Of a stretch of 5,584 nucleotides of DNA, positions 1,208 through 5,584 are shown in pieces (the first letter of the stretch is position 1; each line of letters opens with the position of its first letter). The position numbers were made by a program, and so were the translations under genes. Source of the stretch: Acidobacteriota bacterium (GTDB taxonomy: Bacteria > Acidobacteriota > Terriglobia > UBA7540); assembly GCA_021789565.1 (NCBI GenBank), contig JAJYJL010000654.1:1-5584 (forward strand), in the 5' to 3' direction. Under the pieces are notes generated by a model. It did no database searches, was not told the origin of the DNA, and worked only from the letters and a program-made list of their open reading frames with translations.

Positions 1208-1216
1208 TGCTATAAT
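1208..1216 (+). promoter_or_regulatory. Extended -10 promoter for glmS
   Basis: The bases TGCTATAAT form a perfect extended -10 element (TGn followed by TATAAT at 1211-1216). About 17 bases upstream the -35 position reads AGAACG, which does not resemble TTGACA; extended -10 promoters often lack a good -35. Transcription would start near 1222-1225, giving a leader of about 80 bases before the ATG at 1303. The match is seen in the sequence; its use as a sigma-70-type promoter is inferred. It implies that glmS is transcribed independently of the sulfatase gene. Confidence 0.6.
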
Positions 1217-1302: not shown

Positions 1303-3177
1303 ATGTCAGGAATTATCGGTTACATCGGCAACAAGCGCGTGGTACCTGTGCTGATCGAGGGCCTTCAGCGGCTTCAGTATCGAGGTTATGACTCCGCCGG
1401 CCTTGCGGTAATGAAGGATGGCAATCTGGCCATTCGCCGTGCCATGGGCAAACTGCGCAATCTGGAAGAAGTGATCCGGCTGAACCCCGTTGACGGCACT
1501 TACGGTATTGGGCATACCCGCTGGGCCACGCACGGAGCGCCGACGGAAGAAAACGCCCATCCTCACCGCGACTGCCACGGCAGCGTTGCGGTTGTTCACA
1601 ACGGCATCATTGAAAACTACATGGAGTTGAAGCAGGAACTGGCGGAAGAAGAGCACATCTTCACGACCGAAACAGATACCGAGGTGATTGCGCACTTGAT
1701 CGAGAAATATCTCGACAAGCCGTCGAAGCCTTCCACTCAGGTCACGCTTGACGAAGCTGTCCGATCGGCTGTACAGCGGCTGACTGGTGTTTTCGCCCTG
1801 GCGATCATGTCCACAAGAGATTTGAACAAGATTGTTGCGGTCCGCCAGGGTCCGCCGGCCGTAATCGGTCTCGGCAAGAATGAATATCTGGTTGCCAGCG
1901 ACGTTCCAGCCATCCTGTATCACACCCGTGATCTTTTCTTTCTTGCAGACGGCGACATCGCGGTGCTGACGCCCAATGGCGTGAAGCTGATGGACTTCCA
2001 GGGCGAGCCGGTGACCCGGCGCGTGCAACACATCAGCTGGGACCCCATTCTGGCGGAAAAAGGTGGCTTCAAGCATTTCACCCTGAAAGAGATTTACGAG
2101 CAGCCGCGCGCCGTCCGCGATACAGCGTTGGGCCGTGTTTCTCCGGAAACGGGGCAGATTTTCCTGGATGAAATGGAAATTACTGAAGATGAATTCCGCG
2201 CCTTCCGGGAAATCAAAGTCGTTGCTGCGGGAACCTCGCGGCACGCTGGTCTCGCGGGGAAGATCATGTTTGAGCGTCTGGCGCGCGTACCGACGGAAGT
2301 TGATTATGCCTCGGAATTCCGCTACCGGGATCCGCTGGTGGACTCCCGCACGCTGACCGTGCTGATCACACAGTCGGGTGAAACCGCCGACACGATTGCA
2401 GGGCAGCGCGAGGCCCAGGCCAAAGGGTCCAAGACGCTAGCCATCTGCAATGTACTTGGCAGTATGGTGCCCCGTGAAGCCAACGGGACCATCTACACGC
2501 ATGCAGGACCTGAAATCGGCGTGGGTTCCACCAAGACTTTCACCTCGCAACTGATCGGACTTTACCTGTTCGCGGTTTATCTGGGCCAGCTTCGCGACCT
2601 GATTCCTCCCGCTGAATCGAAGGAACTGCTTAGCGCGCTCACCATGCTACCCCGCCAGCTCGAGTCCGTCCTGCAAAAAGACGAAGAGTATGAAGAGCTG
2701 TCCCGTCACTTCGATCGCGCTTCAGACTTTTTGTTTCTTGGCCGTGGCGTCCATTTTCCAGTGGCGCTTGAAGGCGCCCTCAAGATGAAGAAGGTTTCTT
2801 ACATTCACGCTGAAGCCTACCCGGCAGGCGAACTGAAGCACGGTCCCATCGCCCTCATCACGGAAGGTCTGCCGGTGGTGGTGATGGCAACCTGCGACAG
2901 CAAGTCCAACGATTCGAAGCTCCGCCACGAGCGGACGGTTTCAAACATCAAGGAAGCCAAAGCCCGCGGCGCCGTAATCGTCGCTTTGGTCACCGAAGGC
3001 GACCGGGAAGTTCAGGACATGGCTGACCACCTGATCACACTTCCCCAAACTAACGAGTACCTCTCCGCAGTTCTCGAGGTCGTACCCTTGCAATTGTTGG
3101 CCTACCACATCGCCGTCCTGCGAGGATGCGACGTTGACCAGCCCCGAAACCTGGCAAAATCTGTCACAGTAGAATAG
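1303..3177 (+). CDS. glmS: GlmS-type glutamine:fructose-6-phosphate aminotransferase with altered catalytic residues
   Basis: By family, GlmS makes glucosamine 6-phosphate from fructose 6-phosphate and glutamine in the cytoplasm, the first step towards UDP-GlcNAc for peptidoglycan and LPS. The 624 residues (E. coli has 609) comprise an N-terminal class II glutaminase domain (about 2-230), a hinge (LKEIYEQP, 261-268), SIS1 (about 300-430) and SIS2 (about 467-610), ending in the canonical [10 protein letters not shown]. Retained glutaminase residues include RGYDSAG (27-33), HTRWATHG (71-78), HNGIIEN (99-105) and TDTE (124-127). Retained isomerase residues include GTS (310-312), QSGETADT (357-364), Lys494, GELKHGP with His513, and Schiff-base Lys619. 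Odd points: the N-terminal nucleophile Cys is Ser2, E. coli Glu488 is Lys497, Cys300 is Ala309, Ser347 is Thr356, and the hinge Met is Thr260. Seven extra residues lie between the two catalytic stretches 513 and 619. The family is certain; normal activity is doubtful. Confidence 0.95.
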
Positions 3178-3252: not shown

Positions 3253-5584
3253 ATGGCGCAACGAATTCGATCTTTCAGGTCTCTGGAGTACAGCCGAGCT
3301 GCCGCTCTCGGAAAGCCTGACCGTAGTTCATCCACGCACCATGTTTTCCTCGATAGAGTCCTTCGGCCTGCTCTGGTGATTGGGCTGGTGATTCTTTGTG
3401 CCTGTGGAAGATCTTATGGCCAGTCTTCCGCTTCGACAGGCCTTACTGAAACTCGTCCCACCGTCACAATCCGGCGCGTGAGTCCGCCACCCAAGCTCTC
3501 AGACTTTCTGGATATGAGACCGGACGCAGCCATGGCGGGCAAGATGCTCAAGATCGATGGATTCATTCAGCGCACGCCCAAAGACGATGTGGCACCCAAC
3601 CAGCGGACAGATGTTTATCTGGGTTACGACAACAAGTACCTCTACGTAGTTTTTGTCGCCTTTGACAATGAGCCCAGCAAGGTACGCGCCCACATGACGG
3701 TGCGTGACCATTTGACCGGCGACGAACGGCTTGATCTGTTTCTTGACACCTTCCACGACCATCGTCACGCCTATGTCTTCACCGTCAATCCATTTGGGCT
3801 GCAGCAGGATGGCAGCTACGAGGAAAATGCCAATCCGAATTACGACAGCTCGTTCGATACGGTGTGGAAATCAAAAGGCCAGCGAACCAAACAGGGCTTT
3901 GTCGTGTGGGAGGCGATCCCGTTCAAGAGCCTGCGCTTTCCGGCCGCGCCAAAGCAGACATGGGGAATCCTGTTCATCCGCTGGATTCCGCGCAATAACG
4001 GTTCGGACACGTGGCCGCGCGTTTCGACGCGCATACAGGGGCGGCTTGGCCAGGAGGCCACTCTGGAGGGGCTGGACTCGATTTCGCGCGGACATAATGT
4101 GCAATTGATTCCGTATGCCTATGAGCGATCCTACCGCGCGCTCGACACGCGCGACCCCGCTAATCCTCAATTCATTTCCCGGCATTTCGACCCGCGGGTC
4201 GGAATTGATGGTAAGGCCGTCTTGAAGGACAGCCTGGTGGTGGACGCCACGGTAAACCCCGACTTCAGCCAGGTGGAATCTGACCAGCCCCAAGTCACGG
4301 TCAACCAGCGGTTTGCTGTCAACTTTCCAGAGAAGCGGCCGTTTTTTCTGGAGAATGCGAATTTTTTCCAGACGCCGCTTAACCTGTTTTTCTCCCGCAA
4401 TATCGCAGACCCCCAGTTCGGTGTCCGCCTCACGGGAAAGGTGGGACATTACGCCATCGGAACACTGCTGGCAGATGACAAATCGCCGGGAGAGGTGGTT
4501 CCGACGAACGATCCCCTGGCGGGCAAGCGCGCGCACTTCGACGTCGTGAGGGTCAATCGGGACATCGGGAAACAGTCAACGATCGGCATGATCTATACCG
4601 ACCGCGAATTCGCAGGCACCTATAACCGCGTGGGAGGTATCGACGGCCATTTCAAATTTACGCCCAACTGGACATTGGACTGGCAGGGGGTCGCCAGCGC
4701 AACCACTTCTCCCAGCGCACCGCGCTCCGCAGGCCCGGCGTATAAACTACACTTGCAACGTACCGGTTACCAGTTTTATTACGACTTTGATTATGAGGAT
4801 CTCAGCCCCGGCTTTAATACGGAAACCGGCTTCCTCGGCGAAAATAGGGTGGATAATTTTGTGCCTTACAGTCGCGCGATTCCGAGGCCGGCCGTACGAC
4901 CCGATTTCAGAAGCCTGGGGCAATTCATCACCTATCGCTTCCGGCCGGAAGGCAAGGCGCTGATTTCCTGGGGACCAACGCTTTATCTCGATCCGGTGTG
5001 GGACCACGCCGGCAACCAGCTTGACCAATACTACGATACCGGGTTGAGCTTTGAACTAACCGGCCAAACCTACATTGAGTTTTATCAGGCGGCGGACCAT
5101 GAATTGCTCCGCCCCAAGGACTTTTCCGTGCTGACTGCCAACCAGACTTACGTCCATCAGCACAAGGGCATCTACGTAGGCAGCCAGTACTATCAACCTT
5201 TCACTTTTAGTGCGCAATACGAGTGGGGTACGGATGTGAATTTCGTGCCCCACAGCGGCCAGGCCCCCATGCTGGGTAACCTGACCCACGGCCAGGTGCT
5301 GATGACAATCCGGCCGCTTACAAAACTGGAGGTTGACAATACTTACATCCTGGAGCGGCTCACCAGCCGGGAGGGGGGTGCGAGTATTTTTGATAATCAC
5401 ATCATCCGTTCCAAATGGAACTGGCAGTTCAGCCCGCGCCTGGGGGTTCGAACAATTTTCCAGTACAGTACCGTCCTGCCCAATACAGCGCTGACGTCGC
5501 TGCAACCGACAAAACAATTCAACGCCGACTTCCTGATCTCCTACATTGTGAATCCATGGACGGCCCTTTATATGGGCTACAACA
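3253..5584 (+). CDS. Exported CBM9-like/DUF5916 outer-membrane beta-barrel protein, 3'-truncated
   Basis: The frame is open from the glmS stop to the window end without a stop codon; 777 codons follow ATG 3253, the only in-frame ATG before the signal sequence. Residues 39-51 (PALVIGLVILCAC) form a hydrophobic core after Arg38, with a plausible signal peptidase site at SYG-QSS (56/57). About residues 77-275 resemble the CBM9-like domain of this family, with DVYLGYDNKYLYVVFVAFD, ERLDLFLDTF, AYVFTVNPFG and WEAIPFKSLRF. The family hallmark DATVNPDFSQVESDQ lies at 331-345, followed by NFPEKRPFFLEN (357-368), then an aromatic, beta-rich region consistent with an outer-membrane barrel. The function of DUF5916 proteins is not established; surface binding or passage of a glycan or other polymer is a guess. 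It lies 75 bases after glmS with no clear terminator between, so cotranscription is possible. No good ribosome binding site precedes 3253 (AAAGG at 3230-3234 is 18 bases away), so the start is uncertain; GTG 3376 is an alternative but gives a very short signal sequence. Confidence 0.85.
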   Translation, partial: MAQRIRSFRSLEYSRAAALGKPDRSSSTHHVFLDRVLRPALVIGLVILCACGRSYGQSSASTGLTETRPTVTIRRVSPPPKLSDFLDMRPDAAMAGKMLKIDGFIQRTPKDDVAPNQRTDVYLGYDNKYLYVVFVAFDNEPSKVRAHMTVRDHLTGDERLDLFLDTFHDHRHAYVFTVNPFGLQQDGSYEENANPNYDSSFDTVWKSKGQRTKQGFVVWEAIPFKSLRFPAAPKQTWGILFIRWIPRNNGSDTWPRVSTRIQGRLGQEATLEGLDSISRGHNVQLIPYAYERSYRALDTRDPANPQFISRHFDPRVGIDGKAVLKDSLVVDATVNPDFSQVESDQPQVTVNQRFAVNFPEKRPFFLENANFFQTPLNLFFSRNIADPQFGVRLTGKVGHYAIGTLLADDKSPGEVVPTNDPLAGKRAHFDVVRVNRDIGKQSTIGMIYTDREFAGTYNRVGGIDGHFKFTPNWTLDWQGVASATTSPSAPRSAGPAYKLHLQRTGYQFYYDFDYEDLSPGFNTETGFLGENRVDNFVPYSRAIPRPAVRPDFRSLGQFITYRFRPEGKALISWGPTLYLDPVWDHAGNQLDQYYDTGLSFELTGQTYIEFYQAADHELLRPKDFSVLTANQTYVHQHKGIYVGSQYYQPFTFSAQYEWGTDVNFVPHSGQAPMLGNLTHGQVLMTIRPLTKLEVDNTYILERLTSREGGASIFDNHIIRSKWNWQFSPRLGVRTIFQYSTVLPNTALTSLQPTKQFNADFLISYIVNPWTALYMGYN

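Follow-up and report, generated by a model that had tools for sequence, protein, structure and literature searches.

The first amino sugar of the cell wall is the product of GlmS, and GlmU acts later in the same pathway. Penicillin acylase is a Ser-type Ntn hydrolase. More generally, an excerpt of PMC10866355 lists Ser, Thr and Cys as common N-terminal residues of the Ntn hydrolases. In GlmS, as described in a portion of PMC9272926, the glutaminase half has a single catalytic residue, Cys1, which is also where the glutamine-analogue antibiotic anticapsin alkylates the enzyme, while the catalytic residues Glu488, His504 and Lys603 belong to the isomerase half. Our search of the open-licence literature found no natural GlmS of the Ser type and, among class II glutamine amidotransferases, none with a natural Ser nucleophile.

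The window, that is, the whole stretch of 5584 bases that was analysed, contains one complete glmS-type gene between a partial sulfatase gene and a partial DUF5916 gene. In the profile search, residues 3-624 of its product matched TIGR01135 (glmS) with 786 bits, against a curated cut-off of 418.05, and residues 1-624 aligned end to end with the E. coli GlmS chains 4amv, 1jxa and 2j6h. The protein shares with E. coli GlmS/GFAT (TIGR01135) the two-half architecture, the glutamine pocket, the gate Trp, His504, Lys603 and the C-tail, but differs from it in having Ser1, Lys488, Ala300 and Gln24, which are fixed or nearly so in its clade. Judged from the alignment, then, it is a GlmS by architecture whose catalytic residues would set it apart on two defining points: the N-terminal Cys nucleophile is Ser, and the isomerase catalytic set of Glu488, His504 and Lys603 is incomplete, with Lys in place of Glu488 and the other two residues kept. 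The features of the window are as follows.

3-1160: 3' part of a sulfatase gene (PF00884), upstream of the glmS-type gene
1211..1216, + strand: TATAAT, putative -10 of the gene's own promoter; present within 130 nt upstream in 27/31 clade members
1303..3177, + strand: glmS-type gene, the Ser clade copy (copy A), 624 aa plus stop; TIGR01135 match and E. coli GlmS alignment
1306..1308, + strand: Ser (TCA) for the glutaminase nucleophile Cys1 (E. coli numbering); clade alignment and database proteins
1375..1377, + strand: Gln (CAG) for invariant Glu24; Q in 31/31 and 119/119, E in 114/114 Cys-type
1519..1533, + strand: RWATH, glutamine pocket and ammonia gate (R73, W74, T76, H77), kept in 120/120
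1600..1605, + strand: Asn-Gly (E. coli N98-G99), kept in 120/120
1675..1677, + strand: Asp (E. coli D123), kept in 120/120
2056..3174, + strand: isomerase (SIS) half; two SIS stretches, and from residue 252 on it matches 1moq, the structure of the E. coli isomerase domain
2227..2229, + strand: Ala (GCG) for Cys300, sugar-phosphate site; A in 30/31 (S in 1) and 118/120 (T in 1, S in 1), C in 114/114 Cys-type
2791..2793, + strand: Lys (AAG) for the isomerase catalytic Glu488; K in 31/31 and 120/120, E in 114/114 Cys-type
2839..2841, + strand: His (E. coli H504), kept in 120/120
3157..3159, + strand: Lys in the C-tail (E. coli K603, presumably with its Schiff-base role), kept in 120/120
3253-5583: 5' part of a DUF5916 gene (PF19313), downstream of the glmS-type gene and running to the window end

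Re-reading of the sequence confirmed the Met-Ser-Gly start with TCA at 1306-1308 that the initial annotation had reported. The open reading frame begins at the first ATG, GTG or TTG after the in-frame stop TAA at 1213-1215, namely the ATG at 1303. The initial annotation had fixed this start by the lack of an earlier in-frame start, which holds, and by a ribosome-binding site, which offers weak support because the upstream sequences vary across the Ser clade. What does fix it is the conservation of MSGIIGYIG, and a wrong start codon is ruled out by this conserved N-terminus. Removal of the N-terminal Met should, as was argued earlier, still expose the Ser, and the protein would thereby share with the Ser-type Ntn hydrolases both the Ntn fold and an N-terminal Ser.

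The Ser is not confined to this gene. A search of 5.8 billion proteins gave 120 best matches, the window included, and all 119 that bear an N-terminus begin with Ser, never with Ala, Gly, Thr or Cys; the remaining one, P0063, is truncated. These 119 proteins are 81-100% identical to the window protein, itself counted. Among 80 related loci of named Acidobacteriota genomes, Ser was found in 7 (L001-L006 and L008, 73-94% identical to the window), the N-terminus was cut in L007, and Cys was found in 72, none of which exceeds 70% identity. Using a start pattern that detects only Ser (TCN), Ala or Thr within the canonical N-terminus, we found a Ser start in 37 of the 40 genomes of the window's order, taken as the order of the closest genome; G011, G015 and G028 gave no match to the pattern, and no A-type gene was found in them. 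Outside the order, among the other 359 of the 399 genomes sampled in the class, Ser was found in one (G168) and Ala in two (G156 and G218). The claim that the Ser is not a sequencing error is thus borne out by 119/119 proteins and 37/40 genomes, and the proposed search for Ser-bearing relatives, whose absence was to count against the substitution, found many of them.

The Ser codon in 31 clade genes is TCA in 15, TCG in 9, TCC in 4 and TCT in 3; this drift through all four TCN codons shows that synonymous change has been large while the amino acid stayed the same. PurF of G041 and its counterpart in G005 keep Cys, which rules out a change affecting all class II amidotransferases. In a quick-method tree, built from 36 of the 72 Cys loci among L009-L080 together with all other sequences, the Ser order forms one branch (SH-aLRT 100) inside the Cys-type GlmS of Terriglobia; the method warns of long branches, L149 and L220 among them. 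The set of 148 aligned proteins takes only open reading frames longer than 590 aa with the N-terminal motif, which leaves out L007, L209 (the Cys copy of G596) and any copy truncated at a contig end.

We compared 31 clade sequences, the window included, with 114 Cys-type GlmS, of which 113 are from the Acidobacteriota genomes analysed and one is that of E. coli. The Cys set has 117 invariant positions, and at six of them (1, 24, 252, 300, 400 and 488) most sequences of the Ser clade carry another residue. Four substitutions are fixed or nearly so, C1S, E24Q and E488K in 31/31 each and C300A in 30/31, and at these positions the Cys-type proteins are invariant (114/114). The database proteins of the clade agree, with K488 in 120/120, A300 in 118/120 and Q24 in 119/119. 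Conversely, the pocket residues R73, W74, T76, H77, N98, G99 and D123 are present in 120/120, in line with the earlier list of kept glutaminase residues (R73, W74, T76, H77, N100-G101 and D125 in window numbering), every one of which we found. R26, S303, Q348, S349, T352, K485, H504 and K603 are likewise kept in every protein that covers them, none of the 120 proteins lacks the gate W74, and each site of the C-tail LAKSVTVE is kept in at least 119/120. At position 71 (E. coli), beside the glutamine pocket, an invariant His of the 114 Cys-type GlmS is Glu in 4/31 clade members, including the gene of G005 (GIGETRWATHG).

With Cys1 and Glu488 both replaced, two of the four named catalytic residues have been swapped. 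The probability of finding at least two of these four among the 6 changed of 117 invariant sites is P = 0.013 (hypergeometric), which is modest, and the argument therefore rests on which residues changed rather than on the P value. The initial annotation was right that Ser stands in for the Cys nucleophile in an undecayed pocket, but it overlooked the isomerase half, where Glu488 is Lys and Cys300 is Ala. These two residues shift the reading from a new nucleophile to a protein rewired at both active sites, one that seems to be in use but would not be expected to follow the standard GlmS mechanism.

The Ser copy is not decaying and is under strong purifying selection. Omega was 0.02-0.07 in both halves (window, L005, L112, L113 and L114), and no lesion was found in any of 37 genomes, 30 copies being full length and 7 cut by contig ends only. 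If the inactive paralogue among the options first raised is taken to mean a copy in decay, these results contradict it. The median ratio of pN in the glutaminase half to that in the isomerase half was 1.03 in the Ser clade (400 pairs) versus 1.08 in Cys-type A copies (400 pairs); the same ratio for the second copy described below, copy B, was 1.63 (136 pairs). Among the five relatives, codon changes unique to one gene numbered 2 nonsynonymous and 26 synonymous in L005 and 3 and 13 in L112, both without B, and 2 and 31 in L113, which has B. On these counts, there is no clear relaxation of the Ser copy.

Copy B is a divergent, Cys-type GlmS, 42-48% identical to the window protein, and was detected in 32 of the 40 order genomes (27 in the main search; G012, G014, G020, G022 and G036 in further searches; G016 was covered by the main search alone). 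It accompanies the Ser gene in 30 of 37 genomes and is broken in 3 of these. Its N-terminal Cys was read in 20 genomes, 2 of them without the Ser gene. Over the 40 genomes, B is intact in 23, broken in 3, missing from its locus in 2, cut by a contig end in 6 and not found in 6. A PHP-type gene and galE lie near B in G042 and G033, and one of the two adjoins B in several others. G041 and G005 are among the three genomes most closely related to the window; in both, a single contig carries the PHP region together with the galE region, and B is gone. The genome search found no other full GlmS besides the Ser copy in G041 and G005. B has frameshifts and lacks segments in G012 (L193/L265) and G020 (L257); the B gene of G036 (L256) has lost an internal stretch in frame. 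Counting deleted and broken genes together, B was affected in 5/28 genomes in which it could be judged and the Ser copy in 0/37 (Fisher P = 0.012) or, against full-length copies, 0/30 (P = 0.021); counting lesions alone, the comparison was 3/26 versus 0/30 (Fisher P = 0.09), with the B lesions coming from metagenome assemblies and possibly in part artefacts.

Most of these genomes are metagenome assemblies, and recovery of GlmU, found in 34/40 order genomes, serves as a rough guide to missing genes. GlmU was found in G041, G005, G012 and G020 (the G020 match spans one stop) and was not found in G036, in a search that missed it in 6/40 order and 2/14 control genomes. With GlmU present, UDP-GlcNAc synthesis is to be expected in G041 and G005 at least. 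Both also encode a SIS-only protein that scores below all curated cut-offs and whose best-named relatives include GlmS and NagB-II deaminase; their GlcN6P might come from the Ser protein, from the SIS-only protein or from salvage. As for copy number elsewhere, one copy above the cut-off was found in 10/10 hand-picked Cys-type genomes outside the order, and a hand count, with at most 5 candidates scored per genome, gave two or three GlmS matches in 19 of 210 sampled class members outside it. None of those 19 has a Ser, Ala or Thr start, so that a second copy alone was rejected as the cause of the Ser.

Two further Ser groups keep the pocket motifs. Among the 120 best matches to L217, 16 proteins have Ser, 103 have Cys and 1 is truncated; the 16 make up a Blastocatellia-type group (P0121-P0126, P0128-P0135, P0139 and P0140, with P0121 and P0126 as named members). 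Like the window clade, this group combines Cys1 to Ser with an intact glutamine pocket, and a Cys copy was present in the 3/3 genomes searched. Unlike it, the group lies on a separate branch, keeps Glu488 and Cys300, and carries T302G (16/16, and 0 of the other 104 proteins listed), mostly with H493Y (14/16; H493F in 1) and K485L (12/16). A third group (G320; P0241-P0243, 3 of the 120 proteins listed) has R26H or R26Q and changed tails. Over these other Ser groups, a Cys copy was also present in all four genomes searched (G596, G546, G539 and G320). Parsimony on the quick tree requires four changes, of which the well-supported branches force at least two. The Ser lineages, having changed in parallel, offer a ready comparative set. 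That the window clade represents a class II amidotransferase with Ser1 and Lys488 which is the sole GlmS of some Acidobacteriota, the Cys-to-Ser change having occurred independently in a second lineage, is a possible but on the whole doubtful reading of these sequences.

Quite another picture is given by the copies of G168 (Ser; L149 and L191), G156 (Ala; L237) and G218 (Ala; L238), which have decayed: neither HTRWATHG nor HNG survives in them. The search for GlmU found no match in any of the three genomes, which is weak evidence given that the search also missed GlmU in 2/14 controls (Bacteroides among them) and in 6/40 order genomes; the usual route to UDP-GlcNAc may have been lost or replaced in them. 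In G168, the decayed gene lies on a 6.19 Mb contig and is the only GlmS over the cut-off.

One possible explanation, which we favor tentatively and at rather less than even confidence, is that the Ser protein would be a rewired, working GlmS with a Ser nucleophile that is kept in use. Given the substitutions, their fixation, the selection on the gene, its co-occurrence with a Cys-type GlmS and its better preservation than B, all of which were observed, we infer each catalytic step as follows. An ancestral Terriglobia-type GlmS would have been rewired once, at the base of one order. After Met removal, the freed Ser1, with its own amino group as the base and with E24Q in the same half, would replace Cys1 in attacking glutamine held in the unchanged pocket. 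Ammonia would then pass the unchanged gate of Trp74 and the C-tail, Lys603 and His504 would still bind and open the sugar phosphate, and proton transfer would fall to Lys488 instead of Glu488, which might alter the rate or the balance of products. The invariance of His504, Lys603 and Trp74 points to activity of the Ser protein, and the fact that it persists in genomes whose canonical copy is absent or damaged points to a function of its own. Against a rewired enzyme, the replacement of both Cys1 and Glu488 would most simply mean loss of activity, and the change from Glu488 to Lys reverses the charge of that residue. Moreover, B is kept in most genomes (the 32 of 40 above, with 23 full length and intact), and the SIS-only protein or GlcNAc salvage could feed the pathway, as salvage does in Akkermansia, which lacks GlmS according to the part of PMC5902328 consulted.

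A second explanation is that the Ser protein is a non-catalytic sensor or regulator, which would bind glutamine and fructose-6-phosphate in its intact pockets, undergo a conformational change and thereby control the Cys-type GlmS or another partner with no turnover. Loss of Cys1 and Glu488, two of the four catalytic residues named in the excerpt of PMC9272926, with the glutamine- and sugar-phosphate-binding residues kept, is what such a pseudoenzyme would display, and the B-type copy in 30/37 Ser-gene genomes (3 of them with B broken), like the Cys copy in 4/4 searched genomes of the other pocket-intact Ser lineages, would supply it with a partner to control. Precedents, each known to us from part of the source, are GlmR, a proposed stimulator of B. 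subtilis GlmS (PMC7525490), and PDX1.2, a non-catalytic paralogue that regulates vitamin B6 synthesis (PMC6829848). Like PDX1.2 as it is portrayed there, the Ser protein is a paralogue that keeps the fold and the binding residues and not all of the catalytic ones; unlike it, the window clade keeps His504 and Lys603, and the Ser paralogue stays where the canonical partner is missing (two relatives). The Ser copy is retained without clear relaxation where B is missing, and His504, Lys603 and Trp74 are invariant although a pure binder would need them less. On this balance we regard a sensor as plausible but unlikely.

Third, the isomerase half might use a different sugar phosphate or halt at a different product, Ser1 and Lys488 being adaptations to the new reaction. 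It is suggestive that the two larger pocket-intact Ser lineages each changed other conserved isomerase residues (C300A/E488K in one and T302G/H493Y/K485L in the other), but S303, Q348, S349, T352 and K603 are unchanged in 120/120, and the neighbourhoods, read in 12 of 14 Ser loci, share no gene and thus none that points to another pathway. We think a new reaction improbable.

The initial annotation also offered an ammonia-dependent enzyme, in which Fru6P would be aminated from free ammonia by the isomerase half, with the glutaminase half no longer functional. The loss of Cys1 would be accounted for, and an excerpt of PMC10866355 reports that asparagine synthetase B still carries out ammonia-driven synthesis after formaldehyde has blocked its N-terminal Cys. 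The option is nevertheless disfavoured because the glutamine-contacting residues stay fixed in 120/120; in addition, Glu488 is gone too, and GlcN-6-P synthase is described, in the portion of PMC9272926 at hand, as unable to use ammonia, unlike other amidotransferases. We consider it very improbable. Finally, it is scarcely credible that the gene is an inactive paralogue in decay or that the Ser reflects an error of sequencing or assembly. Nothing speaks for this directly; real decay is seen elsewhere, in G168, G156 and G218, but those cases look entirely different, while Ser recurs in 119/119 proteins from several sources, omega is 0.02-0.07 and lesions number 0/37.

If the rewired enzyme works, other residues are able to perform both chemical steps, and a long-held view of these enzymes becomes testable; if it does not, the clade would be a large natural family of GlmS-like metabolite sensors. 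In either case, the gene is annotated as GlmS without warning, by its TIGR01135 score and by its source names, so that pathway models may rest on the wrong gene.

Upstream of the gene, a consensus scan of 1100-1400 found no full two-box promoter around the putative -10. In 9/31 clade members the TATAAT lies only about 15-21 nt before the ATG, which suggests that the messages of the Ser-type gene would be nearly leaderless there. We also considered, and rejected, an attenuator or other leader RNA in the stretch from the TATAAT to the ATG: no Rfam match lies nearby in the window, and stability in three leaders was not above that of shuffles (z 0.3 to 0.4). Conserved operon partners were likewise rejected, no neighbour gene being common to the 12 of 14 Ser loci read across the clade. 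A DUF5916-related gene follows in L139 and L141 and not in the other Ser loci read, and in L142 a sulfatase-related gene lies upstream with one open reading frame between.
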